Below, one piece after another: positions 9,021 through 37,491 of a stretch of DNA of 64,000 nucleotides. Position 1 is the stretch's first letter, and the number at the start of each line of letters is the position of its first letter. Source of the DNA: a virus; IMG/VR virus record IMGVR_UViG_3300008963_000001, positions 1 to 64,000 of that record, one strand, 5' to 3'. Position numbers and translations under genes: made by a program. Below the pieces are notes generated by a model. That model searched no databases. It saw only the letters and a program-made list of their open reading frames with translations, and had not been told where the DNA came from.

Positions 9021-9057
9021 CTGTAACACAATGTAAAGGAACGCAGAGGATAGTAAA

Positions 9058-10576: not shown

Positions 10577-10585
10577 CATACTACT

Positions 10586-14779: not shown

Positions 14780-15420
14780 TGAAAGCAATTAAACACACCG
14801 GCAAAATGAAGAACACGGGAAGCAAAGTTCTTGTAGCATTTAGAACACTTCCCGGAGAAAGCGACAAAGCATTGGTATTTAGAGTAGATACTCTACCCGA
14901 TTCCTATCACGATGCTCTTATGGATATGATCGAAACTGAACAGGTGCAACAGGCATTTGAACTGGGAGAAATGTTGTTTATTAGGAGTTTTCCAGACGGT
15001 AGACCTATGTTGCAGGCGCTTCGCGCAGATGATAGGTTGAAGAAGGTATCTACTGATGATGTCCTAATGACGCCGAATCCCACTTCTGAAGTTGTGCTAT
15101 CAGAGCTTAACAAAATGATTGCAGAGCAAAAGAATATAGCAGTCGATGACCTTTATACTTTTGTTAAGGGGGCGCCGAAAAAAGAAGAAGTGGAAGCTAG
15201 CAATAACACTGTTGCAACTGCGGAAACTTTACCATCCGACGAGCCAGCACCAGTTGCTGCAGACGCAGGTGAAGTTCTCGACGATGCAGCTCTTGCAAAG
15301 TCTTACCGCAGTCAGGCAGACGCTATGTACAAGGAAGCGGCTAGATTAAGAAGAGAAGCAGACGAACTAGATCCGCCTAAGAAGAAGACTACTAAAAAAT
15401 CATCAAAAGAGGAAGCTTAG
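14779..15420 (+). CDS. Conserved T4-like marine phage protein with disordered C-terminus
   Basis: 213 residues. The ordered N-terminal domain (1-120) contains GKMKNTGSKVLVAFRTLPGESDKALVF, DSYHDALMDMIETEQVQQAFELGEML and FPDGRPMLQALRADDRL, a form I recognise from T4-like marine phages without a known role. Residues 125-175 are Ala/Pro/acidic and probably disordered. The end is a Lys/Arg helix and a Lys-Thr-rich tail (KKKTTKKSSKEEA) suggesting nucleic-acid contact. The stop codon lies in the loop of a bidirectional terminator. Confidence 0.65.
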   Translation: MKAIKHTGKMKNTGSKVLVAFRTLPGESDKALVFRVDTLPDSYHDALMDMIETEQVQQAFELGEMLFIRSFPDGRPMLQALRADDRLKKVSTDDVLMTPNPTSEVVLSELNKMIAEQKNIAVDDLYTFVKGAPKKEEVEASNNTVATAETLPSDEPAPVAADAGEVLDDAALAKSYRSQADAMYKEAARLRREADELDPPKKKTTKKSSKEEA

Positions 15421-15432
15421 AGCTTCCTTTTT
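15411..15432. terminator. Bidirectional terminator between converging genes
   Basis: A perfect 7-bp inverted repeat (GGAAGCT 15411-15417, AGCTTCC 15421-15427) has a 3-nt loop. It is followed on the plus strand by five T residues and on the minus strand by TCTTTT. Both converging genes end inside it: TAG 15418-15420 on plus and TAA 15419-15417 on minus. Confidence 0.85.
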
Positions 15433-16652
15433 CGTGTGTTTCCGTAATGAATTACTTTGCTCGCATGCGAGTAGAATTTCCTCCATGGATCGACCACTAT
15501 GCTGCCTATAGGAATAGTGCAGTATAATTCGTCTTTAGCTTGATTCTTTTGCCCGGTATATTCATAAGTAACTTCAGCAGAATGCGCCATTAGAAACACT
15601 CCGGGATCCCTCGGTTCGTAATCATCTCCTGTGTACGGATCTATATAGGTAGGGGTAAAGCCGTGCTCCTTACAATAGTGCCCGACTAACAGGCTATAAC
15701 TCCCGTCTAAATAAGGAACTTTAGGCTTATACGCTTTGCCATGAATGTATATGGGCATGTTTTCTTCGTTGGCAATGTCAATTAAAAATTTAGCAAGATT
15801 CTCTGCTTGTGTTTCTCTCGCGCTCATAATAGCATCGAATAGATCATATCCTAGGTCCAGCTCTTGTGCCATGTATCTAAGCGCAATATTGTCTCTAGGA
15901 TGACATGCTCCGCCGTCTCCCATACCAGCAGTCATATACTGTGGGCTCATAATTCGCATCTTAGACTGCGCTAGAGCGTCTGTAACGACATCTACGTTAA
16001 TATTGCCCTGTTGCATAGCCACGTCTTGAATCATGTTAACAAGGCTTACTTTGGCGCTTATAAAGGTATTGTAAAATACTTTGATACACTCGCATTCGTC
16101 GTATGTACCTATAACATAACGAGGATCGTTTTCCATTATAGTATCATAAAATTGCTTCAACTGTTTTGCATCACCTGTTTCTTTACCGTCGTCGGTGCCT
16201 ATCATAATCATCTCAGGATTGATCATATCCCATGCTACCGATCCCATTGCAATTAGATAAGGATTATATACAAAACGAGTGTTTGTGGCTTTAAGGACAA
16301 ATTCTCTTCGAACAGTGCCGGGAAGCACTGTAGATATTAGAACCAACAATTGATCGTTGTTCATGTGTGTATTGGCTTCGGTTAATACTTCGTTGACTAT
16401 ATTGTAACTAAAATCCCTAGGCTCTAAATGTGCAGTAGGTGCACTTCCGTCGTAGTCTTTATCGTGAGGAGTAGGCACGGCTACAAAAACAATATCAACA
16501 TCGTCGACACAATCTTTAATACTATCAACAATGTCGACTTTATCGCTTGTATACTTTTCAATGTCATATCCTTTTACAGTGTGACCTTTGTCTACTATTG
16601 CCTCTGCGCAGGGCATGCCTAATTTGCCTATTCCGATATAGCCAATATGCAT
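15417..16652 (-). CDS. ugd: Nucleotide-sugar (UDP-glucose type) 6-dehydrogenase
   Basis: Oxidises C6 of an NDP-sugar to the uronic acid using NAD+, typically UDP-glucose to UDP-glucuronate for surface glycans. 411 residues from ATG 16652, which has GGAGG 5 nt upstream. The Rossmann motif is at the N-terminus (GYIGIGKLGMP). The conserved STVLPGT follows (107-113), then the catalytic-domain helix ECIKVFYNTFISAKVS with the general Lys, and AGMGDGGACHPRDN carrying catalytic C250. The C-terminal third is the nucleotide-binding domain. It is transcribed opposite to the replication genes and is the first member of the sugar-related island. The substrate could be a different NDP-hexose. Confidence 0.9.
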   Translation of the reverse strand: MHIGYIGIGKLGMPCAEAIVDKGHTVKGYDIEKYTSDKVDIVDSIKDCVDDVDIVFVAVPTPHDKDYDGSAPTAHLEPRDFSYNIVNEVLTEANTHMNNDQLLVLISTVLPGTVRREFVLKATNTRFVYNPYLIAMGSVAWDMINPEMIMIGTDDGKETGDAKQLKQFYDTIMENDPRYVIGTYDECECIKVFYNTFISAKVSLVNMIQDVAMQQGNINVDVVTDALAQSKMRIMSPQYMTAGMGDGGACHPRDNIALRYMAQELDLGYDLFDAIMSARETQAENLAKFLIDIANEENMPIYIHGKAYKPKVPYLDGSYSLLVGHYCKEHGFTPTYIDPYTGDDYEPRDPGVFLMAHSAEVTYEYTGQKNQAKDELYCTIPIGSIVVDPWRKFYSHASKVIHYGNTRKRKL

Positions 16653-16662
16653 CAATACCTCC

Positions 16663-16670
16663 AATAAATA
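16663..16670 (+). promoter_or_regulatory. T4-late-type promoter octamer for the divergent plus-strand pair
   Basis: AATAAATA, 27 nt before ATG 16697, within the 44-nt divergent gap between the dehydrogenase and the next gene. It overlaps the region upstream of the dehydrogenase ribosome site. It predicts late expression of the two genes to its right. Confidence 0.5.
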
Positions 16671-16696
16671 ATAGTTGTATTTAATTGGAACACGAT

Positions 16697-17911
16697 ATGA
16701 AGAGAATTTTTAACGCAATAGCAGAAAATGAATATGTAGAAGAGACTCTCGACAGTATTTTTACTGTATTGCTTAGAGAGACAACAGAGCAATCACAATT
16801 CCACTATTTAGACAAATATTCTTATATTGAAGGATTGCTTAAATATACCGATTTTACTAAAACCACTGATCTTTTCCAGTATATCAGACCCAAAATTCTC
16901 AAAAAAATAAGAAAAAGACGTTGTTTTTTTGTTTTTGATGCAAGTACCGAAGGCTTTAGCCCAATTTACGATTGGCTGTTTTTTGATTGCTTGTATTACA
17001 GTTGTGAGAAATATTCAATCGATCCCCGTCAAGTAATTTTTGTCAGTGCCAATCTAAGAGACGATCAAAATATAAAAAAATATTGTAGAGACAATAAAAA
17101 AGTACCTTTAAGAGTGTTCTGTTTCCCTAGTTTTGAGCAGGTTCTAGCAATAGATGAGAGACAAAAAGACCAAGAAATTGAAAAATTTTATGATATAGCA
17201 ATCGAAAAGGCACACACTAATTATAATGGAAAAATTCTATCTAGTCTAAGTAGAACCAATAGGCATTATAGAAGCCTGTCAATTTTTCTTACATATCACA
17301 GTAAATTAAGGAATATATCTCTTTTAAGTCATAATACAATAGATATTAGAGACAAAAAAAGATGGTTACAATCATATGGTCTTGCACATTGGGACGAAGG
17401 ATCGGTAGATGAATGGACAAGAGAATTACCGATGACGATTGATAGAAAAGATTTTTCTACAAATTGGGCAATAGATACACCTTATCGACATATACATGAT
17501 CAAACAGTATTTCAGGTTGTAAACGAAACTCATCAAAATAACTGGAATAAAACAAGTATGTTTTTCAGTGAAAAAACATTTAGACCCGTTGCATATTTTC
17601 AACCATTTGTAATTTATGGCCAAGCAGGGTGCAATAGATGGCTATCTAAAATAGGATATCACACCTACGATCCTTGGTTCGATCTATCGTTTGACGATAT
17701 CGAAGATCCTGTAAAACGTTGCCAAACAATGATAGAAATGCTAGAAGATACTGCATCGATGCTATTACAAATGGATCGAGAACAACAATTAAATTGGCGC
17801 TTCAAACAACCTGATCTACTCAAATCGAACTTTAAGACAATGGTAGAATCTCGTTACAGTAGACAAAAACTTCAAGACTTTCTAAAGAAAATTCAATATG
17901 AAAAAATATAA
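16697..17911 (+). CDS. Glycosyltransferase-like conserved marine phage protein
   Basis: 404 residues from ATG 16697 (a TTG 12 nt earlier is possible). The N-terminal two thirds are Lys/Arg/aromatic-rich with Rossmann-like strands (RCFFVFDAS, QVIFVSANL, VPLRVFCF). The C-terminal third has the distinctive MFFSEKTFRPVAYFQPFVIYG, then NRWLSKIGYHTYDPWFD and a helical tail. I associate this C-terminal pattern with a widespread marine-phage protein often found among glycosyltransferases, but no activity is established. It lacks membrane segments. It overlaps the next gene by 14 nt, so both are probably made together. Confidence in the sugar-transfer role is low; that it is a real gene is certain. 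Confidence 0.6.
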   Translation: MKRIFNAIAENEYVEETLDSIFTVLLRETTEQSQFHYLDKYSYIEGLLKYTDFTKTTDLFQYIRPKILKKIRKRRCFFVFDASTEGFSPIYDWLFFDCLYYSCEKYSIDPRQVIFVSANLRDDQNIKKYCRDNKKVPLRVFCFPSFEQVLAIDERQKDQEIEKFYDIAIEKAHTNYNGKILSSLSRTNRHYRSLSIFLTYHSKLRNISLLSHNTIDIRDKKRWLQSYGLAHWDEGSVDEWTRELPMTIDRKDFSTNWAIDTPYRHIHDQTVFQVVNETHQNNWNKTSMFFSEKTFRPVAYFQPFVIYGQAGCNRWLSKIGYHTYDPWFDLSFDDIEDPVKRCQTMIEMLEDTASMLLQMDREQQLNWRFKQPDLLKSNFKTMVESRYSRQKLQDFLKKIQYEKI

Positions 17912-18749
17912 AAGACTTTTTACATTTGGGTGCAGTTTTACTGACTACTGGTGGCTTACATGGCCAGAAATTTTAGGCTACGAACTAGATGTTCCAGTAT
18001 ACAACTATGGCAGATGTGGTGCCGGCAACACTTATATTTTCAACACATTCTGCCAAGCAGATGCAAAATTTAATTTTAACGAACACGACTTAGTAGTAAT
18101 CAGCTGGACCAATGTTGCTAGAGAAGACAGACACGTAAACGGAGATTGGATAACCCCAGGAAATATCTACACTCAAGATATATACGGCGCAAAGTATGTA
18201 AAAAAATGGGCAGATACGTTAGGATATTTAGTAAGAGACCTAGCCTATATACATTCTGCAACAGAAATTTTAAAAACACGCGGTGTAGATTTTTATAATT
18301 TACAGATGTGCGAACTAGTATATCAAGCCGATCAACAGTCTGCAGATTTTAACGTAGCAGATAAAGAAAATAAACATTATCAAAATTTAAAAAAACAATA
18401 CAAAAAAACTATAGACACATTAAAGCCTAGTTTTATGACTGTTCTTTGGGATAATAATATTGGTAGTAACAAACACCTTTTAGATAAAAAATATTTTAAT
18501 TATTTTAGCGACGGGCACCCGCTACCTCTAGAGCACTTGGCATATTTAGAAAATATTTTAAATATAGATTTTTCCAAGAACACTAACAATGTTGTTAGAC
18601 AAAAACAAGAAAAATTTATTTCGATAATCAATCAAGCAGAGCAGGAATATAAAAAAAGTTTTCATTTATTCGAATTACCGCAAATTATACAAAATAGAAT
18701 AACGGAAGAATGTAAGCTAAAGATAGAACTAAAACCAAATGTCTTGTAA
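17898..18749 (+). CDS. SGNH/GDSL-hydrolase-like protein
   Basis: 283 residues. The N-terminal block FTFGCSFTDYW matches GDS-block placement with Cys for Asp before Ser12-13, followed by YNYGRCGAGNTY (block II Gly and Asn) and a C-terminal FSDGHPLPLEHLAYL (block V, Asp and His of the catalytic dyad). Family members remove acetyl or other acyl groups from sugars or lipids. Such proteins are common in marine phages and glycan loci. There is no signal peptide, so it acts in the cytoplasm or on the virion. The last 21 nt overlap the converging radical SAM gene. Confidence 0.65.
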   Translation: MKKYKRLFTFGCSFTDYWWLTWPEILGYELDVPVYNYGRCGAGNTYIFNTFCQADAKFNFNEHDLVVISWTNVAREDRHVNGDWITPGNIYTQDIYGAKYVKKWADTLGYLVRDLAYIHSATEILKTRGVDFYNLQMCELVYQADQQSADFNVADKENKHYQNLKKQYKKTIDTLKPSFMTVLWDNNIGSNKHLLDKKYFNYFSDGHPLPLEHLAYLENILNIDFSKNTNNVVRQKQEKFISIINQAEQEYKKSFHLFELPQIIQNRITEECKLKIELKPNVL

Positions 18750-19904
18750 TTCAGGAAAAGTTTTGCAAAAACTTTGAGATCTTTTAGAATCAAGTTCTTT
18801 GGTAATTGCTTTAAACATTCTATGTATATTGTTGTCGTACTGGCTATTTTGTAAAAAACTAATTACACCGTTTATTTGATTTTCTACATGTTCATTATAT
18901 CTAGTTTTGTTGGATTCTAATTTATCAATAATTTTTTCTTTGAGCGGTTGCGGGATAATTTGGAAAGTATAAAACGACGGGTTTTGGATGCAATATAATA
19001 TTGGATAAAAGTCATCTATATCGAACAAGTTGTTTTCTAAAAGATAGTCAAAAAATTCAGGTATTGTGTATACATTAAACACACTAACTACAGAACTCAG
19101 TGAAAGAGCTACATTATCTCCTAGTGAGTTTATTTCTCTAATATTTTCTTCGATATCTTGCCATTTAGATCCGTCTCTAATATACTCTGCACGACTGCCC
19201 CAGCTATCTAGACTCCCTGAGATTACAATATTATTAATTTTATTCCAATAGTCTACAACTTTCTTGTCCTTAAATTTCAACTTGGATAGATTCGAGTTAT
19301 ACCTTATTTTTACATCGCGCCGATTCATTTTAACTATTTCATCTAAGATATCATAGTGTGTTTGCATCAGCAAGGGTTCGCCGCCTGCAAAATAAAAAGT
19401 ATCTACATAAGGAAAATGCTGTTTTATATCTTCGTACAGTTCTGTATTTTCTTTGCCGCCCGCAAAAACATATGTTTTTGCATGATTGTTTTCTTTTGCC
19501 CAGCTTGAACTAAATGTAGGACTACAGCTTCTGCATTTAAAATTACAGATGTTGCTCCACCTCACGTCTATGTAACGCAGTTTAAACTCAGGCAGGCATC
19601 CGTTATCTTCTGTAACATCTTTGAGATACGCATACTTTTCAAAATCTCTGTTCGCTTCCTGCCTAAAACTTGCATTTCCGTTATCCTCGTTGTTATAACA
19701 ACTTGTGCAAGTATCGCTGCGCTCGCCATTCAACATCTTTTTGCGCAGGTCGCGATATGCTTTTTGATTCCAAATATCTTCTATTCTATCTTGTCTAACA
19801 TTACCTAGAGACAATGTGTGGTTAGCAACACAGCAGGGCAATACTTTACCGTCTGTATCCGCATACATGTGTATCCAAGGCAAAATGCAAAACGTATCGG
19901 CCAT
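18729..19904 (-). CDS. Radical SAM protein with N-terminal SPASM/twitch-type cysteine region (copy 1)
   Basis: 391 residues. The N-terminal 75 residues carry a SPASM/twitch-like set of cysteines: C6 (FCILPWIHMY), C24-C25 (VLPCCVAN) and C66/C69 (CTSCYNNED), with the LGNVRQDRIEDIWN linker typical of such domains. The radical SAM core follows: CNFKCRSC (C120, C124, C127), then TFYFAGGEPLL (GGEP) and strands of a partial barrel. Usual SPASM proteins carry the auxiliary-cluster domain at the C-terminus; here it comes first. Such proteins modify peptides, sugars or other small substrates; the substrate here is unknown. It directly follows a related protein with no gap and ends the nine-gene operon. 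Confidence 0.8.
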   Translation of the reverse strand: MADTFCILPWIHMYADTDGKVLPCCVANHTLSLGNVRQDRIEDIWNQKAYRDLRKKMLNGERSDTCTSCYNNEDNGNASFRQEANRDFEKYAYLKDVTEDNGCLPEFKLRYIDVRWSNICNFKCRSCSPTFSSSWAKENNHAKTYVFAGGKENTELYEDIKQHFPYVDTFYFAGGEPLLMQTHYDILDEIVKMNRRDVKIRYNSNLSKLKFKDKKVVDYWNKINNIVISGSLDSWGSRAEYIRDGSKWQDIEENIREINSLGDNVALSLSSVVSVFNVYTIPEFFDYLLENNLFDIDDFYPILYCIQNPSFYTFQIIPQPLKEKIIDKLESNKTRYNEHVENQINGVISFLQNSQYDNNIHRMFKAITKELDSKRSQSFCKTFPELQDIWF

Positions 19905-21275
19905 CTATGCTACCTCACAATAGTCTTGCATGAATTCTACATATTCTGGAAATGTTTCCTGAAAGTTTGTTTGCCGTCTTCTGTCGTATTCTCTAAACCA
20001 GCGGGCAAAATCTCTCCTGCCTTCTTGAATTTTTGATTCTGAGTACTTTGTTACATTCATGTATTCTACAACACGCTTGAATTTTTCATATTCGATAGTT
20101 GAAAATTTAAATTTATCGTTGTTATCAAGATTATTTCGAATGTAGGCTAGATTTTCTTTCATATATGGCATGAATTTATCTTTCGGTAATATATTCATAT
20201 CATATTGCAGGGGTTCTTTTAAGTAGGGAGTGTCGAACCGGATTCTCTGCCATTGTTTTTGGTTGTCGATATTATATCGACTTCGCCACTCTAGCATTTT
20301 TTCTAACAGGCTAGTAAAATTGGCTACTGTTAGAATGTTGAATGTTATCATAAAGGTGATCGGCAGATTGGTTTTAGTAAGATATAAATCTAAATTGCGT
20401 TCCCAAAGTTCTATATCGAGACCGGTCCTTAAATATTCTGCACGATTGCCCCAGGTGTCTATCGATGTAAAAACTTTAAAATCTTTAATGCAGTTGTTCG
20501 CTATGAGATTGTTGATTTTGTCTGCTAACCGCTCTACTAATTTAGTTTTTACACCTAAATTTGTGTTTATGTTTAATTCTAATTGCGGTTGAGGATTTTT
20601 TTCTAGCTCGTCGAACAATCTCCACGTGCTTTGTTGCAATAATGGCTCCCCGCCGGTGATTCTAAGGATAGTAAGTGTTTTTATTAGTTCTGGCCACCAC
20701 TCCCACCATGCGTCAACATAGGGATTTTCTTCTTCCTTGTAAACATTGAACCAGTCAATGTCGTTCCTATGATTTTTTACCATATCATAGGGTCCAAAAT
20801 CTCTAATTTCTTTGTGGTAAGTGCTAGAATGCTTAGGATGGCAATAGCCACACTTGAAGTTGCACTCATTTCCGAAACTTATTTCCACGTATTGAGGATT
20901 TATATTTTGGTCCCATGAACCTTTTGTTATTTGATCGTATCTCTCTGGTGTGTAGATACTTGCGTTGCGCTCTTTTCTGTCGGAAATGTATTCTTTGCCT
21001 AAATCTTCGATATTCCAGCAATACTGGCACCCCGAAGGTCTTTCTCCCTCTAACATTTCTGCTCTTTCTAACTTCTTAAGTGGTGTATTATGGAGCGCAC
21101 TGGGGTTTTCTTTGAGTTCTTCTATTGGTATCGGGTGCGGTGCAGGATGATAACAACTGTGAGTTTCACCAGTTTGTAAATAAATTGTAGTGTGATGCCA
21201 CTTGGCAAGGCAGAAGCTAGGACTAACTGCGTCCATTAAAGGAATTATCTTATCAATCTGCTCTTTATTACTCAT
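19905..21275 (-). CDS. Radical SAM protein with N-terminal SPASM/twitch-type cysteine region (copy 2)
   Basis: 456 residues from ATG 21275, which overlaps the preceding stop; a TTG 12 nt earlier is less likely. It is built like its neighbour: N-terminal cysteines C22 (FCLAKWHHTTIYL), C41 (HSCYHP), C83/C86 (GCQYCWNIED), then the core CNFKCGYC (C138, C142, C145), a Trp-rich insertion (AWWEWWPELIKTL) and RITGGEPLL. TSIDTWGNRAEYLR corresponds to SLDSWGSRAEYIR in copy 1, showing common ancestry. It ends with an Arg-rich stretch and FPEYVEFMQDY, parallel to FPELQDIWF of copy 1. The substrate is unknown. Tandem radical SAM genes of this type in one operon suggest consecutive or heteromeric action. 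Confidence 0.8.
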   Translation of the reverse strand: MSNKEQIDKIIPLMDAVSPSFCLAKWHHTTIYLQTGETHSCYHPAPHPIPIEELKENPSALHNTPLKKLERAEMLEGERPSGCQYCWNIEDLGKEYISDRKERNASIYTPERYDQITKGSWDQNINPQYVEISFGNECNFKCGYCHPKHSSTYHKEIRDFGPYDMVKNHRNDIDWFNVYKEEENPYVDAWWEWWPELIKTLTILRITGGEPLLQQSTWRLFDELEKNPQPQLELNINTNLGVKTKLVERLADKINNLIANNCIKDFKVFTSIDTWGNRAEYLRTGLDIELWERNLDLYLTKTNLPITFMITFNILTVANFTSLLEKMLEWRSRYNIDNQKQWQRIRFDTPYLKEPLQYDMNILPKDKFMPYMKENLAYIRNNLDNNDKFKFSTIEYEKFKRVVEYMNVTKYSESKIQEGRRDFARWFREYDRRRQTNFQETFPEYVEFMQDYCEVA

Positions 21276-22320
21276 AAACTTTATCAAACTGCTGTTTTAA
21301 CCAATCAAAATCATTTATAGACTCGAATCCGTCTCGATCGGTTCTGTGGGTTAAGCCGAATGCGTAACCTTGTTCGGCACCTGTTAATGCATACTGGCCA
21401 AACGGCTTGTCTGATCCTACAGTTTTCCAAATTTTTAATCTTTCTTCGGTGTCGTCGTCTACTTGATTAGGAATAATTTTACTTGATAACTTGGCACATT
21501 CTCGAAATGCTGATTTCCATGTATTAAAAGGATCAGTATTAAACTCTGTTGTGTTAGAAACAGTGTCGATATATTTAAATTTTCCGCTTATACTAGTAGT
21601 CATGTCGGTTTTTTCGGAGTCGACATCTAACGTGTAGCTTCTTGGTAACAGTTTAACACCACCATACCCGTATTTTAATCCATTTATAGGATTATTGCTT
21701 GCCCAAACATAAACAGTGTCTCTCTGAAATTGATCAGGGGAATGATCAAATCTAAAATTATCATCTATATCAGCATCGCCGTCTACTACATAAAACATTT
21801 CCGACGTAACAAGCTTTGCAGCTTCTCTATGTGCATTATGGATTCCTTTAACACCATGAATTCTGTGAGCAGCGGGCGCCTTTTGTTTTAGTTTTCTAAA
21901 GTTTTTTTCTGCATTTGGTTCATTGTAACTAATAAAGACCACTTCAAAGAATTCATCCTGCTTTTTAGGGCGGCTTATTTCTAGGTTAACTTCTTTTCGG
22001 TTAATAAAAAATTTATGTTTAAATTCAACTTTACTAGGATTTAGGTTTTTTGGGAACAAGCAAACACCGTCAAATGTTCCGCCGTTCTTAAAAATATGAA
22101 CAAACATGTCGTCGTATTTGTCAGCACGATATGAATTTAAGTCAAAGTCGTAATCAATTTCTAGATTATCCCATACAACCCAAAACATCTTTGTTAGAGA
22201 TTTTTTCTTCAGCTGATCAAACTCGGCATCCGGAGGCATTCTATATGCTCTTGGATAATGAATCTTAAATTCATCCCAATCTTTATTGTTCGTGCCTAGG
22301 TATATTATATCGTAGTTCAT
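21268..22320 (-). CDS. GT-A-like glycosyltransferase-type protein with internally duplicated domain
   Basis: 350 residues. The C-terminal two thirds (from about residue 125) match the neighbouring upstream gene: FEVVFISYNEPNAEKNF, HRIHGVKGIHNAHREAA, FYVVDGDADI (a DxD-type metal site), then NPINGLKYGYGGVKLLPR and PFNTWKSAFREC. The first 120 residues look like a worn copy of the same unit: a Pro-Arg-Ala-Tyr-Arg segment, MFWVVWDNLEIDYDFDL in place of the DGD strand, then MFVHIFKNGGTFDGVCLFPK. The family is common in T4-like marine phages and is assigned to nucleotide-sugar transferases only by its GT-A pattern. It overlaps its neighbours by 4 and 8 nt. Confidence 0.6.
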   Translation of the reverse strand: MNYDIIYLGTNNKDWDEFKIHYPRAYRMPPDAEFDQLKKKSLTKMFWVVWDNLEIDYDFDLNSYRADKYDDMFVHIFKNGGTFDGVCLFPKNLNPSKVEFKHKFFINRKEVNLEISRPKKQDEFFEVVFISYNEPNAEKNFRKLKQKAPAAHRIHGVKGIHNAHREAAKLVTSEMFYVVDGDADIDDNFRFDHSPDQFQRDTVYVWASNNPINGLKYGYGGVKLLPRSYTLDVDSEKTDMTTSISGKFKYIDTVSNTTEFNTDPFNTWKSAFRECAKLSSKIIPNQVDDDTEERLKIWKTVGSDKPFGQYALTGAEQGYAFGLTHRTDRDGFESINDFDWLKQQFDKVYE

Positions 22321-23207
22321 GATAGATAATAGGTTTTGCAGAGATTGATAGTTTCGTTATAGACATCTAAGGCGTATTCACTCATATCGCAATCTAAACA
22401 AGGAAAGTTTAATCCTAATCGCAATTTAATTTCTTGACCTAGAGTTTTAATAGTGTCGGTTACTTCTGATCCTGTTAATTTTGATACTTTTTCATTGTAA
22501 ATCTCAGTTAATTTTTCAAAATCTCTCACATCTACATGATCCCAGTCAGTGCAATACGTCATATGTACACCCATTCTTGCACCAAGCACCGCAAATTCGC
22601 CATTTTCAACATGTGACCCGACTGTGCACCACTGTCTTAATCTGTGTAAGTTGTGCCACCACACCTCTTCTTTAATTCTATCTGGATTTACCTTTTCTCC
22701 ATCGGCCAGTGTCATTTTTACACCTTCTCTAAAGCCGGCGCGCCATGCTTGAAAAGGCGTTTTATTAATATTTGTATCACTAAAAACTTGTGGAAACGCT
22801 CTATAACCGTTTTCCCAACAAAAGTCTACTTCTGCACGCTTGTTTTCTGCGGCCTCGTGTGTTTTCATGCCCAAAATAAAATCTTTTTTCCACAACTTTA
22901 ACCCGCCGTTGCCGTATCTTAGCCCGTTGATGTTGTTTTGCCCGCACCAACTGTATACTTCTATATTGTTGTCTGTCATATCTAAATCGAGATTAAAAAA
23001 ATCCGTTCTTACAACGTTGTCTGCATCAACTGTCAACAAACACTCTGTTTCACTTAATTCGGCGGCTGCTTTGTGGGCAGCGTCTGATCCCTTAACTCCG
23101 TGTATTCTTTTGGTCCAAGGTACTTTATCACAGAGGTCTGCGAAGTTTTCTTCCGCATTAGGTTCGTCATAACTGATAAAAACTACATCAAATTCGAGTG
23201 GTTTCAT
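22317..23207 (-). CDS. GT-A-like glycosyltransferase-type protein, paralogue of the next gene
   Basis: 296 residues with FDVVFISYDEPNAEENF at the start, TKRIHGVKGSDAAHKAAAEL, LLTVDADNVV (DxD), NNINGLRYGNGGLKLW and PFQAWRAGFREGVKM. It shares these landmarks in the same order with the protein encoded just downstream, so the two arose by duplication. The C-terminal 60 residues, with CLDCDMSEYALDVYNETI, are not shared and could bind metal through two Cys. Likely cytoplasmic. The sugar-transfer assignment is inferred from the GT-A-like strand-DxD pattern, not from a recognised CAZy family. Confidence 0.6.
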   Translation of the reverse strand: MKPLEFDVVFISYDEPNAEENFADLCDKVPWTKRIHGVKGSDAAHKAAAELSETECLLTVDADNVVRTDFFNLDLDMTDNNIEVYSWCGQNNINGLRYGNGGLKLWKKDFILGMKTHEAAENKRAEVDFCWENGYRAFPQVFSDTNINKTPFQAWRAGFREGVKMTLADGEKVNPDRIKEEVWWHNLHRLRQWCTVGSHVENGEFAVLGARMGVHMTYCTDWDHVDVRDFEKLTEIYNEKVSKLTGSEVTDTIKTLGQEIKLRLGLNFPCLDCDMSEYALDVYNETINLCKTYYLS

Positions 23208-23830
23208 ACAAAATCCATTACATATTTCTTAAAAAGTCGCCTAGTATATAAGCTGATATTGTCATGCGGCACGGTTATTTGAAACTCCATATCTCCGTTG
23301 ACTAGGTCTATAATATTAAAAGAAAATTTATCAAAAATAATGTTAGGGTCGTTGTATTCTGTTACCAAAAAATCCATTTCGGTATCGCCTGACCAGTGTA
23401 TCTTTCTAGACTTTGGCTGATTGGTTGATTCTAAATCTACATAATTGCCTCCCCATTGCTTGCCTAATTGTATTTTTAAGCTGCTGGTCACGGTGTTATG
23501 ACACACAAAAACGTCTGCATCTTCGTGTTCGCACCATTTTTTTGATGGGATTCTGTGTAGAACGTCATCGATTTTGGTTAAACTTTGTGTTTCTACAATA
23601 TCAACACCGCCGCTATCGATGTCTAGGTAACAGTTGTGTATCTTTATTTCGCCATTTAGTATTCTTTCTGCTAATTCCTCGTCAAGGTCGACGATGTTTA
23701 CATCGTCATTAAAAGAAATAGACGGGCCGACTTTGACTATTTTAAAGCTGTCTGGGTCGAATCTTGCTTTGTATTGTATTTTCTCTGCTTCGGCGTTTTG
23801 AATTTCTTGTAATAAATCTACTTCTGCCAT
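23204..23830 (-). CDS. Unknown protein of the sugar/radical-SAM operon
   Basis: 208 residues, acidic and beta-rich, opening with MAEVDLLQEIQNAEAEKIQY (helix) and then alternating strands: FKIVKVGPSISF, IVDLDEELAERILNGEIKI, NCYLDIDSGG, DADVFVCHNTVTSSLKIQLG, KIHWSGDTEMDFLV and KFSFNIIDLVNGDMEFQITV. No catalytic signature is recognised. The beta-sandwich-like look would suit a binding or scaffold protein. It overlaps its neighbours by 13 and 4 nt, so it belongs to the coupled operon. Confidence 0.55.
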   Translation of the reverse strand: MAEVDLLQEIQNAEAEKIQYKARFDPDSFKIVKVGPSISFNDDVNIVDLDEELAERILNGEIKIHNCYLDIDSGGVDIVETQSLTKIDDVLHRIPSKKWCEHEDADVFVCHNTVTSSLKIQLGKQWGGNYVDLESTNQPKSRKIHWSGDTEMDFLVTEYNDPNIIFDKFSFNIIDLVNGDMEFQITVPHDNISLYTRRLFKKYVMDFV

Positions 23831-24657
23831 GCTTTGTGCTCCAACGTACTGATTATTTCTCTAGTCATTAGATCTTTTTCAACATAGTGCACAATATCGT
23901 TCTGTTGATAATTGCCAATTTTTAAATTTGCGTCTTTGTTGATATAGAATCCCACATGATTAGTAGATTTGTTTGCTGGCCAAGGCCAATTTTGCACCAT
24001 GGGCTTAAAATGAACTACTCTAGGAAACGCAAGATCGTAGGCAATATCGTCTTCGATCCCTAGAATCTTTGCTGACAGTGCAAATGCTTCGTCGGTCCCT
24101 ATGACTTTGGGTTTGTGTTTGCTTAGGAATAAATTTGAAAAAGCATCGCTGTCTTTTAAAATTTCTCTCTGTAGGTTAAAAAAATCTCTGCAGAGGTCAC
24201 TGTTCTTAACAAAAAATGTGTAAAAGGAATAAAGATTAGGCAAATCGTTTGCTGTGAATGTTTTTCTGTAATAGTCATCTTGAATCTGTTCTCCCCTATA
24301 CGTATACGCACAAGAAGGAATATACAATTCACAGTTGTCTAAGAAATAGTCGATCCAATGACTGTAATCTCTCAAAAAAATCATATCAGCATCGAGACAC
24401 ACTGTTGCATCCCACGGCGAGTATAGATCCATATTGGATCTTCCGTCCCAGCCTTCGGGCAGTGATTCTATAATCACTGTATCGAACACCCATGAACTTT
24501 CTATATTATCTAAAAGGCCGCCATCTTCTAAAACAAGTGCTACCTTGTCGTATCCGTGCTTTTGGGTAGTTTTTATACTCAAGGCAAGTGCATATGCAAG
24601 ATTGATGTAATCCATATCATCGTGCTGTTTGCAAACTATTAAATATCCAAAATTCAT
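23818..24657 (-). CDS. GT-A glycosyltransferase (GT8-like)
   Basis: 279 residues. The N-terminal Rossmann-like part (GYLIVCKQHDD, VALVLEDGGLL) leads to DATVCLDADMIFLRDYS, a classic DxD strand-loop for Mn-nucleotide-sugar binding. It is followed by a second half with GTDEAFALSAKILG (acceptor-side Asp-Glu) and VVHFKPMVQNWPW (His that contacts the diphosphate in GT8-type enzymes). It has the glycogenin-like topology of GT8 proteins that use UDP- or other NDP-sugars. The adjacent upstream gene is a relative. The acceptor is unknown; the dehydrogenase nearby could supply a uronic-acid donor. Confidence 0.7.
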   Translation of the reverse strand: MNFGYLIVCKQHDDMDYINLAYALALSIKTTQKHGYDKVALVLEDGGLLDNIESSWVFDTVIIESLPEGWDGRSNMDLYSPWDATVCLDADMIFLRDYSHWIDYFLDNCELYIPSCAYTYRGEQIQDDYYRKTFTANDLPNLYSFYTFFVKNSDLCRDFFNLQREILKDSDAFSNLFLSKHKPKVIGTDEAFALSAKILGIEDDIAYDLAFPRVVHFKPMVQNWPWPANKSTNHVGFYINKDANLKIGNYQQNDIVHYVEKDLMTREIISTLEHKAWQK

Positions 24658-25514
24658 ATGCTGTCTAACAGTGCCTCGTAATTTCTTGTTATGCTCTTTT
24701 TATTCATAACGTGGACGTCTCTCTCTGCTAGAGAAGTTACATAATATTTTCCGGTTAAGTCTTTGTCAATTAAAAAACACAATCTGTCGTTGTTAACATG
24801 TGAAAGACAGTCTTTGTCTAGTGTTGTAAGCACGTCTGGTAAAAAATAATCAGTTGATTCCTCAAAACCGTCGGCAATATGTTTAGCAACACTAAAAGCA
24901 ATGTCGTTGCGATATTGAAGACTGTCAAACCTATATAAACTAGCAAATGTAGTATAATTTTCTCTAATAGTTTCAACCAAATCAAATATTAATTTAGATT
25001 CTAGATCTTTTTTAAACATTACAGTAGTAGCCCAAAGCATTTTGGGCCCGGTGGATGAAACGTATCTATCCATATATTTCAGGCGATCTTCTGTGTTGAT
25101 GTCTAGGGCCGCGCTGCTGATTAGAAAAGACTGATCAATGTCCCAATAGCTGTTTAACCGGTTTGATTGGACAATGAAATCACAATCGATTAACAGTGTT
25201 TCTTGGTAAGGTGTTAGATACCATGCACTAGACCTATTTTGGTTTGTAAACAGTACATTATGGCAGGCCTGCATGTCTTGTAATTTTCTAGTGTTGTTGG
25301 GCTCGGGTCTTTCGTCAACAATAATTTGATCGAACACAGATTGTGCTGTTGGGTATATGTTGGAAGACTGCATCCACTCCGTTGTCGAATCGTCTGTTAC
25401 TAGAGACACAGGAAGACCTAAATTTTTCTTAGCAAGAGATGCTGACACAATAGCAATGCGGGCATAGTCCACATCTCTATTGTTGTGTGCATACATCAAC
25501 ACACCTCTAGTCAT
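24654..25514 (-). CDS. GT-A glycosyltransferase-like protein, related to the next gene
   Basis: 286 residues with the same plan as its downstream neighbour: VLMYAHNNRDVDYARIAIVSA, LPVSLVTDD, TPYQETLLIDCDFIV (D-C-D in place of DxD), an alpha-helical middle, FDSLQYRNDIAFSVAKHI (Asp before Ile-Ala-Phe parallels GTDEAFALSAKI), and a C-terminal DVHVMNKKSITRNY segment where the partner has its His motif. It is probably a nucleotide-sugar transferase of the same broad group, possibly with altered metal use. It overlaps the previous gene by 8 nt and the next by 4 nt. Confidence 0.6.
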   Translation of the reverse strand: MTRGVLMYAHNNRDVDYARIAIVSASLAKKNLGLPVSLVTDDSTTEWMQSSNIYPTAQSVFDQIIVDERPEPNNTRKLQDMQACHNVLFTNQNRSSAWYLTPYQETLLIDCDFIVQSNRLNSYWDIDQSFLISSAALDINTEDRLKYMDRYVSSTGPKMLWATTVMFKKDLESKLIFDLVETIRENYTTFASLYRFDSLQYRNDIAFSVAKHIADGFEESTDYFLPDVLTTLDKDCLSHVNNDRLCFLIDKDLTGKYYVTSLAERDVHVMNKKSITRNYEALLDSI

Positions 25515-25857
25515 TCAGTAGTTTCTCCACTGATCGTTTTTTACTGAATTCTTTGTATTCTTCGTAATACTCAAAACTAGTAGTAAAATATCGATCAAAA
25601 ACTTCATCTTTGAATACTTCCACGTCTTTGATTAAAACCGGATTGTCGTTGCTGTCGAGAAGGACAACATTGTGTGTTCTCCCCATATCGATTAAAGTGT
25701 GAACAAAGTTTAAAAGAGTTTGATCTATTTTAAATAGGCCGCCATTATAACCAAATGTAAGACGTGCTTCGGCCTTTTCTTTAAGTAGGCGTTTTTGAGA
25801 TGATAGTGTTTGACGATAATTTGCAAAGTCAAGGGCTTGCTGAAACTGCTCGTTCAT
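25507..25857 (-). CDS. Small conserved phage protein, first gene of the operon
   Basis: 116 residues: an N-terminal coiled-coil helix (NEQFQQALDFANYRQTLSSQKRLLKEKAEARL), a short beta region (TFGYNGGLFKIDQTLLNFVHTLID, VVLLDSNDNPVLIKDVEVF) and a charged helical end (YYEEYKEFSKKRSVEKLLND). I have an impression of similar proteins near tail-fibre genes in T4-like marine phages but no known role. GGAG lies about 7 nt before ATG 25857, and a strong promoter begins 21 nt upstream. Confidence 0.6.
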   Translation of the reverse strand: MNEQFQQALDFANYRQTLSSQKRLLKEKAEARLTFGYNGGLFKIDQTLLNFVHTLIDMGRTHNVVLLDSNDNPVLIKDVEVFKDEVFDRYFTTSFEYYEEYKEFSKKRSVEKLLND

Positions 25858-25877: not shown

Positions 25878-25906
25878 ATAGTAGCAGTTTATTTAAGCAT
25901 TGTCAA
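25878..25906 (-). promoter_or_regulatory. Sigma70-type promoter of the nine-gene sugar/radical-SAM operon
   Basis: Read on the minus strand: perfect TTGACA (25906-25901), a 17-bp spacer, TACTAT (25883-25878) preceded by TGC (extended -10). A second box TATAAT lies 3 bp further at 25880-25875. It sits in the 61-nt gap between the operon and the structural genes. It predicts early or middle expression by host polymerase, unlike the late structural genes upstream. Confidence 0.75.
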
Positions 25907-25918
25907 CTACAATAGAGG

Positions 25919-27649
25919 TTAATTAGATACTCTTCCTAGCACGGTTCCGATATCTCTAAACGCAACATTATTTGCACCTTTAACAGACAGTCCTGCGAGG
26001 CCGCCGAATCCTCCTAGATACGAGTCTTGGTCGTATACTATAGAATCGGTGTTTTCTATTCCTCGCCCACCGTTAAGACCGTTTTCGCCCCAGTTGCCTC
26101 CTCGTCCGCCGCTTCCGCCTTGCGCCGTTAAGCCTCCTGAGCTAGAACTACTGCCAGACCCGCCTGCGCCTTCGCTAGTAAATGTTCCAGCGGCACCGTC
26201 TGCGGCGGCACTCGGGCCGCTGCCTCCTGAAGACGAGGATAGGCTTGACTGGCCGCCGCCGCCACCGGCGCCATAACCTAACAGATTAGGAGTGTTATCA
26301 CGTTTATCTCTTAATTGCGCAAAGCCGCCGCCGCCACCGCCGCCGCCACCGCCGGCTATGGTGCCTTGATTATCAATTAAACATTCTACAAAGGTAGTTA
26401 AGGCAGTACCTCCAGGCGAACCGCTAGAACCATTGCCGCCGCTGCCTCCGCTACCGCCATTACCGCCTCGTCCTACGATAGTTCCGTTATTAATTAAACT
26501 TACGCCGCTAGGAAAGCTTCCTGAAATTGTACAAGCAGCCGTGCTGTCGCCGGCGGTATCGCCCGAAACAACAACTCCGCTAGCAATTGTAATAACAATA
26601 TGATCAGAACCGTTCCATCCGCTGTTTTGTGCAAACGTTCTAATATCTAAATTAGTAGTATCGGAACTTACGGTAGCACGGAATGTAGATGCATCGTCTG
26701 GGTCTACATTCAAAACATTGATATCTCTTACTGTCACGTCTGGAACAGGAATATCGACTGCATTGACCGTAGCCGGAACCATGTTAAAAATTGGATTTTT
26801 AGTAGAGATAAAGTATTTTAGTTCTCCATCGACGCCGTCTGGACCGATTCCCGTAGGCGGATGATCGTCTTGATATCTTATGAGAAATTCGAGAGTAGAA
26901 GCATCACCATTGCTGTTGTCTGACACTCCTGGAGTTCTAGCAAATATTTGATAGACGTTTGCGCCGTATGGCGATGACGCATTAAATTGTTCTACCAGCT
27001 GATAGGATCCGCCGAGTCTATAAAAGTTTTGAGCGTCATTCGGCTCAATTCCGGTTTCTGGTATAACAGCGCCGAACTCGTATGTGCCTACAGTCTCAAG
27101 CAATTCAGTCCATTTTTCGTTCTGCGCACGAATTGTTCCGATGTCGCCAGTGGCGTTTCCGCCAGTTCTTTGACTGAGTATTCTAACTGTCCCGCCGGCA
27201 TTAAAGAAAAAACGAGCTTGGTCGGCTGACCCAAACTCTAGTGTTACGATTGCTTGAGCACGTTCACGCCAAAAACCGTTATATGATCCTGATCCGTGGT
27301 CTGTTATTGTAAACTGTCCGTTAGCTACGTTAAACCTGTTTGCATCGACAGTTTGAGACTCGGTTAAATATCTCTCATATGGTTCTGTTGTGTTGTCGTA
27401 CTTTATAGTTTCGTTTGCTACCGCGTCGGGCAGCGTTGGTATCGTTCCTGTTTGATGTCTTATACAATTAATTAGATCATTTTTAAGTGCTGCCCATTCA
27501 TTCACTGTAATACTATTGCTTTCGTCTACAGGAGAACTTTGAACAACTTGTCCGTAGCCTCGGTTGTTAGCACCGTTACCTAGAACGCTGGAAACAAGTT
27601 GTTGAACGGTATTATAGTCACTTTTTGCTATTTTATCATTAACGGCCAT
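25919..27649 (-). CDS. Distal tail-fibre / adhesin-like structural protein with glycine-rich tip
   Basis: 576 residues. Residues 1-290 (beginning SDYNTVQQLVSSVLGNG, GYGQVVQSSPV, ITVNEWAALKNDLINCIRHQTG) are paralogous to the protein encoded just upstream. A central region ends in SGVVVSGDTAGDSTAACTISG. From about residue 390 to 545 come glycine runs (GGNGGSGGSGGNGSSGSPGG, a stretch of nine or more Gly, SSSSGGLTAQGGSGGRGGNWG). Such runs form packed polyglycine-II helices in the T2/S16-type gp38 receptor-binding adhesins. The protein closes with YLGGFGGLAGLSVKG and a conserved GTVLGRV end. It is placed last in the late operon, as expected for a receptor-binding tip. Homology to gp38 is not claimed, only similar composition. 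Confidence 0.65.
   Translation of the reverse strand: MAVNDKIAKSDYNTVQQLVSSVLGNGANNRGYGQVVQSSPVDESNSITVNEWAALKNDLINCIRHQTGTIPTLPDAVANETIKYDNTTEPYERYLTESQTVDANRFNVANGQFTITDHGSGSYNGFWRERAQAIVTLEFGSADQARFFFNAGGTVRILSQRTGGNATGDIGTIRAQNEKWTELLETVGTYEFGAVIPETGIEPNDAQNFYRLGGSYQLVEQFNASSPYGANVYQIFARTPGVSDNSNGDASTLEFLIRYQDDHPPTGIGPDGVDGELKYFISTKNPIFNMVPATVNAVDIPVPDVTVRDINVLNVDPDDASTFRATVSSDTTNLDIRTFAQNSGWNGSDHIVITIASGVVVSGDTAGDSTAACTISGSFPSGVSLINNGTIVGRGGNGGSGGSGGNGSSGSPGGTALTTFVECLIDNQGTIAGGGGGGGGGGFAQLRDKRDNTPNLLGYGAGGGGGQSSLSSSSGGSGPSAAADGAAGTFTSEGAGGSGSSSSSGGLTAQGGSGGRGGNWGENGLNGGRGIENTDSIVYDQDSYLGGFGGLAGLSVKGANNVAFRDIGTVLGRVSN
26251..26355. repeat. GC-rich trinucleotide-repeat tract within the adhesin-like gene
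   Basis: Two clusters (26251-26270 and 26324-26355) of GCC/ACC trinucleotides encode runs of glycine on the minus strand. They stand out against an A/T-rich genome and are prone to slippage in multiples of three, which would change the length of the glycine runs without breaking the frame. Confidence 0.8.
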
Positions 27650-27664
27650 TCTTTAAAACCTTAC

Positions 27665-28582
27665 TTAAGAAGCTGATATATTAGATACTGAGTATGTTGG
27701 GCTTGTAACGTTAAACTGTCCGGTCCCAGTCGGAAGCAACGAACTAGCAGCTTTAACTTCTACTATGTTAAAGTTTAGTTCGCCGTCGACAAAGCCCGAA
27801 GGGGGATTTGTATTTGCTGGGAATCCAGACACAACATCGGGATCGACATAATCGTCCTTTAACGACAGCCTAATATCTACTTTAGTGGCGCCGCCATTGC
27901 TGTTATCCGGTACATTGCTTTTTGCTTCGAGCAAAACACTGTTGTTTGCATATGCAGCACTCGAAAACTGTTGGAAAATAGATTGGTAGTCGTCAGTTAG
28001 ATCGTAAAAGTTTACGTCATTATTATAATCCATTCCAAATATAACTGCTCCTACTTCTGTTAATAAACTGTTCCAAGAATTATTTTGAGCGGTAGTAGTA
28101 TAGTTTTCTAAAGTTGGTGTGATTTCAACTCTAGAGCCGCTGTTAAAGAAGTAGCGGGCATCGTTTGTATTTTGAAAATCTAATGAAATTTCTAACACTG
28201 CTTGATCATTCCATTGTCCTGAGAACGCAGGGGGCGAATTGATCTGTTCAATATCAACACCGCTAGGGGCAAGTTTAAATCTATTTTCTCTAAGTTCGCT
28301 GATAACATTGGCATAATTTACTTTGGGATCTCCTGACTGGTCTCCTATTACATCGCCCACTTCAGCATCTACAACAGAAGGCAAAACTCCGTCTTGGTGT
28401 AGTTTGGCATTAATAATATCAAAACGCAGGTCATCCCACTGCTGTGCTGTAATAATATTTCCTGCAAACACCGGAGAGCTAACCACAGTTTGGCCGTAAC
28501 CAAAACTGCCTGTTCCAGGGCCCATTACCTCTACAATTAGATTGCGTAATGAGTTATAATCCGAATCTTGTATATCAGTCAT
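27665..28582 (-). CDS. Virion structural protein, paralogue of the adhesin N-terminus
   Basis: 305 residues. The sequence SDYNSLRNLIVEVMGPG, FGYGQTVVSSPV, ITAQQWDDLRFDIINAKLHQDG at the start, then ARYFFNSGSRVEI and LTEVGAVIFG, repeats in the same order in the adhesin-like protein encoded downstream (ARFFFNAGGTVRI, LETVGTYEFG). It lacks the glycine-rich tip. The form matches a structural protein I associate with T4-like marine phages. Its ATG shares a base with the previous stop. It is probably a fibre-shaft or connector subunit; the precise location is unknown. Confidence 0.65.
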   Translation of the reverse strand: MTDIQDSDYNSLRNLIVEVMGPGTGSFGYGQTVVSSPVFAGNIITAQQWDDLRFDIINAKLHQDGVLPSVVDAEVGDVIGDQSGDPKVNYANVISELRENRFKLAPSGVDIEQINSPPAFSGQWNDQAVLEISLDFQNTNDARYFFNSGSRVEITPTLENYTTTAQNNSWNSLLTEVGAVIFGMDYNNDVNFYDLTDDYQSIFQQFSSAAYANNSVLLEAKSNVPDNSNGGATKVDIRLSLKDDYVDPDVVSGFPANTNPPSGFVDGELNFNIVEVKAASSLLPTGTGQFNVTSPTYSVSNISAS

Positions 28583-30345
28583 TACAATATAACCGCTTCT
28601 ATTTTAGTAATGCCCTCATCGTCTTTGTTTTCTAATGCTATTGCAAAAATGTGTCCTGCGTCGCTTGCAACTGCATATCCATTCTGGCCTGCAACAAGAG
28701 TATCGCCTTTGCGGACGCGGCCGCCTACTTTCATCGGTACTCTGCCTTTTAATGCAATGTAAACACCATTTTCTAATTCTGTATTCATCATAAATGCAGG
28801 GTTTGTAGATACTGCACCAATTGCTCTCGAGCTAGCGGTACATGCTGTTACTTCTGCAGATCCGCCTACTATAACCACTGTGCCAGTTTCGTAATCGTCG
28901 TCAGGCAAGTATTTTTCAGCGAGGTCGGCGTATTGCGCAGCAGTGGCTGTTCCTTCGAAAAGGTTTGCTTTTAAATTTCCTGCAGAAGTTCTAGCTGCAA
29001 TTGTATCCGCAACCGGATTAGTCTTTGCACTTCTATAATCAGGATCGGTATCGGTTGCAGCATCGTCTATTTTTAATCTATCAGCAAAGTTTGCGGTGCC
29101 TTGCAGTTGATTAACAAAAATGTCTCCTGCGCTATCCCTAATCACTACACTTTGTTTATTTGCGCTGATTGGTAATTGTATGCTAGGTAAATTATCTCCT
29201 AGTCTATCTGCGTTGTCTGCTGTTCCCTGTAAACTGCCCTGTACATTACCTACAAGAGTTCCTCTAAGATCCGCACCAGTATATCCAATTATTAAATTTT
29301 CTGCATCAATTATTTTTTGAGCACCGCCGAACACACTGCCAGTTACGTTTCCTGTTACATCGCCGGTTACATCACCGGTTAAATCGCCTATAAATGTATT
29401 TGCATAGATATTGTCATACTTTAACAACGGCGTTCCGACATTAAATGTACTGTCTGAGCCGGGCGTAATACCATCTGCATTTACAATAAGCACATCGCGC
29501 TCGTCTGTGATAGGGCTTACAACTACGCGGAATCGTAAATCATTTCCCAGCTGATTTCTAAAATACAGAACATCGTTTTCTACACTAACTTTAAGATCAT
29601 TAGTGTCTCCTAGAGTATAACCGCTATCATCAAAAGAAACACCACCATCAAAAGATATGTTTCCTCGCTGTACAAAATTCTCCGGCGAGATGCCGTCTAA
29701 AGTTAAAGCGTTTGCGGCGGTGCCCCAGTAAACATATGAATCGCCGCTGATGCCGTTGACATCTGTATTGGTTAGAGTAAAACCTTTTTTAATAGTTGTA
29801 AAACCTTCGATAGGGTTTAGTGATGTGTTTAACTGGAATTCATCGTCACTGACGATGCCTACTGTTTCGCCACCGGCATTTAATTTTAGTATTGTATAAT
29901 TAGTTCCGCCTGTGTCTTTTACTACTTGAGGCACTGCGGCAGATACACCCTGTGTATTGCTAGTTTCCGGTCCAACCAAAACGAATTCTGATCCAGACCA
30001 AGTGTACAATTGATTGGTAGAGTTATCCCACCAGAACTCGCCAGGCTCTAGTCCAGCGGGTGCTGTTGAGCCTACTTCTGCACCATTAGCAATTTTAAAT
30101 TTGGAGCCATCATAAAATTTTAAACGTTTGTTTGCACTGTCATACCAAATTTGACCTTGTAATGCTCTTGGCGGTGCCGTAGTGTTGGCAAAATTTTCTA
30201 ATAGGTGTAGGAAATTTTCATTTTGAACTTCGCCGTATCCTGCATAGTTTTTACCAACAAATCTAATATCTGTCGAATTATCAATAGAACCGTCTTCTAC
30301 TGATGTTAAAAATTCTCCGTTAAATTTATCTACTTGATAACTCAT
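28582..30345 (-). CDS. Tail-fibre paralogue 4, with C-terminal AERY-type domain
   Basis: 587 residues. The N-terminal ~130 residues are the fibre-base module shared by four neighbouring genes (GKNYAGYGEVQNENFLHLLENFA, GQIWYDSANKRLKFYDG, LGPGEFWW-like turn, FVLVGPE). Residues 130-470 are a repetitive shaft with pseudo-repeats such as LTGDVTGDVTGNVTGSVFGG. The C-terminal domain (about 480-587) contains LAEKYLPDDDYETGTVVIVGG, STNPAFMMNTELENGVYIALKGRVP and KGDTLVAGQNGYAV, a domain found at the ends of many marine phage fibres. A late promoter octamer lies 24 nt upstream of the start. Receptor-binding or structural, location at the tail fibre. Confidence 0.7.
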   Translation of the reverse strand: MSYQVDKFNGEFLTSVEDGSIDNSTDIRFVGKNYAGYGEVQNENFLHLLENFANTTAPPRALQGQIWYDSANKRLKFYDGSKFKIANGAEVGSTAPAGLEPGEFWWDNSTNQLYTWSGSEFVLVGPETSNTQGVSAAVPQVVKDTGGTNYTILKLNAGGETVGIVSDDEFQLNTSLNPIEGFTTIKKGFTLTNTDVNGISGDSYVYWGTAANALTLDGISPENFVQRGNISFDGGVSFDDSGYTLGDTNDLKVSVENDVLYFRNQLGNDLRFRVVVSPITDERDVLIVNADGITPGSDSTFNVGTPLLKYDNIYANTFIGDLTGDVTGDVTGNVTGSVFGGAQKIIDAENLIIGYTGADLRGTLVGNVQGSLQGTADNADRLGDNLPSIQLPISANKQSVVIRDSAGDIFVNQLQGTANFADRLKIDDAATDTDPDYRSAKTNPVADTIAARTSAGNLKANLFEGTATAAQYADLAEKYLPDDDYETGTVVIVGGSAEVTACTASSRAIGAVSTNPAFMMNTELENGVYIALKGRVPMKVGGRVRKGDTLVAGQNGYAVASDAGHIFAIALENKDDEGITKIEAVIL

Positions 30346-37483: not shown

Positions 37484-37491
37484 TATTTATT
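37484..37491 (-). promoter_or_regulatory. T4-late-type promoter octamer for the fibre genes
   Basis: Minus-strand AATAAATA (forward TATTTATT), 23 nt upstream of the 210-residue structural protein start and spanning the stop codon of the giant gene. It would allow fibre genes to be transcribed without passing through the 14-kb giant gene. Confidence 0.55.

Follow-up and report, generated by a model that had tools for sequence, protein, structure and literature searches.

In pelagimyophages, the host recognition cluster (HRC) is a hypervariable tail-fibre island that carries GT8 transferases, UDP-glucose 6-dehydrogenase and radical S-adenosylmethionine (SAM) cassettes, and it lies between VrlC and gp14 of a Tevenvirinae genome (PMC7029224). 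Moraphages, which are large aquatic phages, have four putative glycosyltransferase orthogroups in their core genome, with virion glycosylation as one possible role (PMC12619734); the term "radical SAM" is absent from the main text of that report. Glycosyltransferase and radical-SAM genes of marine phages have so far been taken for scattered auxiliary genes or for modifiers of the host O-chain. Here we analyzed an island of such genes at positions 15417-25857 of a 64,000-nucleotide (nt) stretch, referred to below as the window, which comprises the first 64,000 nt of the 128,677-base IMG/VR virus record IMGVR_UViG_3300008963_000001. A previous, sequence-only reading had described the island as twelve genes that look like a complete pathway for making and attaching an unusual, perhaps radical-modified sugar. 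We found that it consists of a fixed core operon, U116-GT286-GT279-U208-GT296-GT350-radical SAM, joined to exchangeable cargo. The island type is already known, and the fixed core is newly resolved.

Core operon and cargo across related loci

Related loci (158, some of them near-duplicates) were retrieved with core-gene queries in two IMG/VR scans and annotated using profiles built for this analysis. A fibre gene was found directly before U116 in 135/135 cases, and U116 was followed by GT286 in 143/143. The next junctions were nearly as constant, with GT279 after GT286 in 151 of 153 loci, a U208-type gene after GT279 in 146 of 153, and GT296 after the U208-type gene in 137 of 146. This core order was kept in more than 150 loci, even where identity drops to about 30%, and at least 573 relatives of GT286 are present in IMG/VR. 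Downstream of GT296, the comparison was made on complete intervals, defined as GT296 to a flanking 213-amino-acid (aa) gene, of which 11 were distinct. All 11 contained GT350 together with one or more radical-SAM genes, whereas the dehydrogenase, GT-B-like and SGNH-like genes of the window each occurred in only three (the SGNH count includes SGNH-like relatives). Several islands were reduced to GT350, one radical-SAM gene and a short open reading frame (ORF), some with thyX. Cargo in other loci included an epimerase, a methyltransferase and further radical-SAM types as well as, by sequence inspection, oxygenase- and amidinotransferase-like proteins.

With a fixed core set against optional cargo, the earlier gene list therefore mixes a fixed module with swappable genes. 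The idea that the genes belong together holds for the sugar-transfer and radical-SAM module, which is tied to the fibres and kept across relatives, but not for the cargo; gene co-occurrence, the comparison that the sequence-only reading had proposed, likewise separated the conserved core from dehydrogenase, GT-B-like and SGNH-like genes that come and go independently. A complete pathway is not borne out, as these three genes are optional, only one enzyme that makes a sugar donor is encoded, and a search of the 128.7-kb record gave no gene of the epimerase family.

In the window, the ORFs were confirmed and the island was counted as 11 genes, the number to which the list behind the earlier figure of twelve also sums. 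Its position between replication-side genes and tail fibres was confirmed. On the minus strand, the order of transcription is fib587, fib305 and fib576 (25919..30345), followed by U116-GT286-GT279-U208-GT296-GT350-rSAM2-rSAM1. Neighboring genes from U116 through GT350 overlap by 4-13 bp (8 bp for U116/GT286 and 4 bp for GT286/GT279), and the core is therefore operon-like; GT350 and rSAM2 overlap slightly, and rSAM2 abuts rSAM1. Downstream of rSAM1 are the SGNH-like and GT-B-like genes on the plus strand and then the dehydrogenase gene on the minus strand, which extends to a terminator-like hairpin (15406..15432; 12-bp stem, T tract on the plus strand) at the convergent junction with a replication-side gene. 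Of the fibre genes, fib576 and fib587 gave PHROG tail matches. The product of fib587 is similar to PA5oct gp359, whose annotation records detection in virions by mass spectrometry (MS), and PA5oct gp360, also annotated as MS-detected, has a fib305-type N-terminus by eye.

A promoter-like site (TTGACA-17-TACTAT with TG) lies 5′ of U116 at 25878..25906 on the minus strand, at the same place as a conserved motif, TAAATAAnnTGC, which it overlaps. Among distinct upstream regions of U116 in the relatives, 75/105 contained TAAATA, compared to a mean of 6.0 and a maximum of 12 after shuffling, and the element nearly always began 31-35 nt ahead of the start codon. The same hexamer was found 5′ of fib587 in 33/77 cases (shuffled 3.9), compared to none for GT286, none for GT279 and one for GT296. 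The T4 late promoter core is TATAAATA. Because TAAATA is common to the U116 and fib587 upstream regions and recalls this core, U116 and a fibre gene likely share a late promoter class, as judged from the motif, and the core operon is probably transcribed together with the fibre genes.

The source is an uncultured T4-related aquatic myophage lineage. Its baseplate and tail proteins gave T4-like PHROG matches, and its DNA polymerase was closest to those of Sinorhizobium phage Phosso (49.5% identity) and Agrobacterium phage Atu_ph07 (47.3%). No tblastn match to GT296, rSAM2, GT286 or GT279 was obtained among 50,697 phage records. The fibre-U116-glycosyltransferase operon was also seen in contigs binned as metagenome-assembled genomes (MAGs) of Neomarinimicrobiota, Rickettsiales, Gammaproteobacteria and Rhodobacteraceae (L168-L172, L174, L180, L182); these are probably phage contigs binned with bacteria and may hold hints of hosts.

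Protein families encoded by the island

Five proteins had been called glycosyltransferase-type, and none of them exceeded a curated Pfam or NCBIfam cut-off. GT286 (24654..25514, minus strand) and GT279 (23818..24657, minus strand) are tandem paralogues (hhalign E 8e-27). Their profiles matched glycogenin-1 with E values of 0.005 and 1.8e-4, respectively, over approximately the N-terminal 100 residues and the DxD region; a Pfam search at E 0.1 gave no match for either, and their placement in GT8 is one of remote profile likeness only. Glycogenin's first acceptor is a protein. GT296 (22317..23207, minus strand) gave an AlphaFold2 (AF2) model with a mean predicted local distance difference test score (pLDDT) of 92.5, and Foldseek returned 51 matches in the PDB at E≤0.001, of which those listed were almost all glycosyltransferases of the GT-A type. 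They included the fucosyltransferase WrtF, a PBCV-1 capsid glycosyltransferase and the peptide S-glycosyltransferase SunS, with low TM-scores of about 0.24-0.42; a sequence-profile search of the PDB gave no significant match. GT350 (21268..22320, minus strand) is a paralogue of GT296 (A2 profile, E 2.7e-48) with an extra N-terminal region. No relation between the GT286/GT279 and GT296/GT350 pairs was detectable by sequence. Catalytic motifs are intact, with the DxD invariant in the alignments of GT286 (D110/D112), GT279 (D89/D91) and GT296 (D61/D63). Thus the glycosyltransferase assignment stands by profile for GT286 and GT279, by fold for GT296 and by paralogy for GT350. The fifth protein, GTB (404 aa; 16697..17911, plus strand), found no match in a PDB profile search, and its GT-B-like assignment comes solely from a conserved SEKTF motif (alignment A7).

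Proteins resembling GT350 and GT296 at about 30-35% identity were also observed in bacteria of high guanine-plus-cytosine content, including Parvibaculum, Micromonospora, Streptomyces, Nocardia and others (L181, L183-L186, L188-L192). On three contigs binned as Bdellovibrionota MAGs (L176, L177, L178), GT296-like genes are accompanied by a methyltransferase and several radical-SAM genes, and L178 has PP-loop and Asp-hydroxylase-like genes in addition.

The two radical-SAM proteins named by the sequence-only reading were verified. Both match the twitch-domain family NF033640 over their full length, rSAM1 (18729..19904, minus strand) with 392.8 bits and rSAM2 (19905..21272, minus strand; alternative start at an upstream TTG, 21287) with 321.8 bits against a cut-off of 170, and rSAM1 also exceeds the cut-offs for SPASM and Radical_SAM (Pfam). 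The CxxxCxxC motif, GGEP and four N-terminal cysteines are invariant among 27 aligned radical-SAM sequences. NF033640 itself comes without an assigned reaction, so that none carries over to these proteins; twitch/SPASM radical-SAM enzymes often modify peptides. For rSAM1, distant matches only (about 23% identity) were found in Vibrio phages and one marine virus contig. Vibrio phage K566 has five radical-SAM-like ORFs (L196:17971-35338) that distantly resemble the twitch family and have no island core genes nearby, and the radical-SAM clusters of Vibrio phages K566 and D479 were rejected as counterparts because the core is absent.

Two core proteins have no relative of known function. U116 (116 aa; 25507..25857, minus strand; alignment A5), encoded by the first gene of the core operon, had no Pfam or PHROG match. 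U208 (23204..23830, minus strand), which occupies the fixed slot between GT279 and GT296, diverges fast and is mainly beta in its AF2 model (pLDDT 77). A fold search gave three viral matches (two named uncultured Caudovirales phage) and none in the PDB at E≤0.001; a sequence-profile search of the PDB was also without a significant match.

Within the cargo, the nucleotide-sugar dehydrogenase was upheld as a UDP-glucose/GDP-mannose dehydrogenase-like protein (15417..16649, minus strand; alternative start TTG at 16664). Its NAD-binding and central domains exceed the Pfam cut-offs (PF00984, 60.8 bits; PF03721, 55.8 bits), while the C-terminal UDP-binding domain PF03720 (19.4 vs 30 bits) and TIGR03026 (143.4 vs 189.8 bits) fall below theirs; GxGxxG and a GGACHPRD catalytic-Cys motif were recognized by eye. 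The dehydrogenase is shared with Marine virus AG-345-E15, where the core is absent from the 45 kb covered, and it was the only one of the window genes tested to be shared with the first 45 kb of MH319741. The protein described as SGNH hydrolase-like (17898..18749, plus strand) keeps that label, as hydrolase or acyltransferase, by its GCSF...GxGN...DGHP motifs, again by eye, and matched no Pfam or NCBIfam family. Elsewhere in the window, folE (GTP cyclohydrolase), a phosphoribosyltransferase-domain gene, a HIT-domain gene and a QueE-like radical-SAM gene occur at 8331-11437, and a single ORF of 4,626 aa lies between the fibres and a baseplate-wedge gene (37487-51367).

Candidate acceptors of the module

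Tail fibres, capsid, host envelope and DNA bases had all been put forward as acceptors. We tentatively favor, at close to an even chance, a late, soluble glycan-building module that acts on the phage's own adjacent fibres. Fibres are the most economical acceptor because of the constant adjacency, the shared promoter-like motif, the glycogenin-like transferases and the structural relatives whose substrates are a viral capsid or a peptide. In the cultured relatives Phosso and Atu_ph07, the place following the fib587 homologue likewise contains radical-SAM enzymes, next to a protein with a CHxS-repeat tail (see below), which suggests that this slot may recruit enzymes that modify virion proteins. 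As to acceptor, linkage, order of steps and biological benefit, we infer that the module would work in the cytoplasm of the infected cell, where two tandem glycogenin-like and two GT-A transferases would draw on host nucleotide sugars, with UDP-uronate-type sugars added to the donor supply where the phage dehydrogenase is present. The product would be a short glycan placed on a fibre or fibre-associated protein soon after its synthesis. The twitch radical-SAM enzymes may alter the sugar or an acceptor residue, a radical-modified sugar being putative, and the SGNH-like and GT-B-like cargo may add acyl groups and end sugars. Exchange of cargo would then let related phages vary the decoration. 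The fuller proposal, a widespread dedicated phage operon that makes a variable fibre glycan and in which a radical-SAM enzyme alters the glycan or its protein attachment site, we regard as rather doubtful.

Several points weigh against fibre decoration. The loci were found through core genes, and the adjacency figures are therefore conditional on the presence of the core. The fibre synteny could reflect no more than a shared late operon. The remaining 30 upstream regions of U116 lack TAAATA, and some of them have sigma-70-like boxes; some upstream regions were anchored wrongly, at an internal ATG. Within the window, TAAATAAnnTGC (≤1 mismatch) is not more frequent than expected by chance, and the promoter argument therefore rests on conservation across loci. 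Two of the Bdellovibrionota MAG contigs (L177, L178) are without fibre genes and other core genes. Moreover, lipopolysaccharide is also built by GT8-type enzymes, and lipid-linked glycans are within reach of soluble cytoplasmic transferases.

The main rival is remodeling of the host surface (O-chain or capsule) by the island during infection, which would block superinfection or release progeny from the receptor. Similar islands of pelagimyophages were proposed to modify the O-chain (PMC7029224), cargo of the UDP-glucose dehydrogenase, epimerase and acyltransferase-like kind is typical of surface glycans, and GT296-like genes stand alongside radical-SAM genes on bacterial MAG contigs. However, clear transmembrane stretches are absent from all island proteins, and among the 11 genes none resembles a lipid-carrier transferase, flippase or polymerase. 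In addition, the core is locked behind the fibres and has a promoter-like motif in common with a fibre gene, whereas exclusion functions would be expected early, and it is retained while the donor-making cargo is optional. Taken as a whole, we consider host-surface remodeling possible but somewhat unlikely.

In an improbable alternative, the sugar genes are secondary, and the role of the radical-SAM enzymes and transferases is to make or modify a product of peptide type, or a crosslink, on a virion protein, either a fibre or U208. It would fit the frequent use of peptides by twitch/SPASM enzymes and the fixed place yet fast divergence of U208. It also draws on Phosso (L162:13999-21742) and Atu_ph07 (L163:14811-22460). 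Following the fib587 homologue, these phages have three to four radical-SAM genes, whose products match peptide-maturase models below cut-off, together with a cupin-like protein (by eye) and, flanked by the radical-SAM enzymes, a protein of ~300 aa whose C-terminus, CHxSCHASCHxSRSRR, is invariant though overall identity is 46%. By its sequence, this protein resembles a His-Xaa-Ser-type modification substrate; no functional description of it was found in the literature searched, and an A8 profile scan of IMG/VR for CHxS-tailed proteins returned one contig of 490,380 bases. On the other hand, the Phosso and Atu_ph07 radical-SAM proteins belong to families other than NF033640, and a regular-expression scan of the fibres, U208 and other ORFs of relatives of the island found no repeat or Cys-rich substrate motif, CHxS-like motifs included.

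That independent auxiliary genes without a joint product gathered by chance in a hypervariable region is very unlikely; it remains true of the cargo, in which the dehydrogenase, GT-B-like and SGNH-like genes vary independently and the dehydrogenase alone is shared with AG-345-E15, but for the core it is contradicted by the order fixed over so many diverged loci. Glycosylation of phage DNA bases, a known activity of phage glycosyltransferases (discussed in PMC12619734) that is brought to mind here by the folE- and queE-like genes upstream, is the least credible reading because thymidylate-synthase/hydroxymethylase-type, QueC and TGT genes were undetected in the (possibly incomplete) 128.7-kb record, and moreover the module travels with fibres rather than replication genes and a PDB sequence search with GT296 gave no match to DNA glucosyltransferases. 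Among the acceptors originally listed, then, the fibre is favored by synteny and the promoter-like motif, and the DNA base loses ground with no base-modification enzyme detected.

That a fixed core is locked to the fibres at more than 150 loci suggests a conserved function related to the virion, in a large group of phages without a close cultured member in the collection searched, and it provides a short gene list whose acceptor is directly testable. If fibre decoration is true, the island would serve to diversify fibres, varying the receptor-binding apparatus through chemistry as well as through sequence.

Comparison with described phage systems

The Phosso and Atu_ph07 cluster occupies the same place behind the fib587 homologue and, as here, includes several radical-SAM genes. 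It differs in its radical-SAM families, in that the core glycosyltransferases were not seen there, and in the presence of the CHxS-repeat-tailed protein. The moraphage orthogroups can be likened to GT286, GT279, GT296 and GT350 by description only (PMC12619734). In mycobacteriophages, phage transferases decorate virion proteins, as proposed for the island; according to the citation of that work in PMC12619734, the glycans are on capsid and tail tube subunits (Freeman et al., 2023), whereas fibres are the proposed acceptors here and radical-SAM enzymes are added.

The likeness to the pelagimyophage HRC is one of gene content and fibre adjacency, as GT8-type (by remote profile only), dehydrogenase and radical-SAM genes are all present and a fibre gene precedes every U116 scored. 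The island lies between fibres and replication-side genes. In contrast to the HRC, a core of constant order is set apart from the varying cargo, and the DNA polymerase of the phage is closest to those of the jumbo phages Phosso and Atu_ph07.

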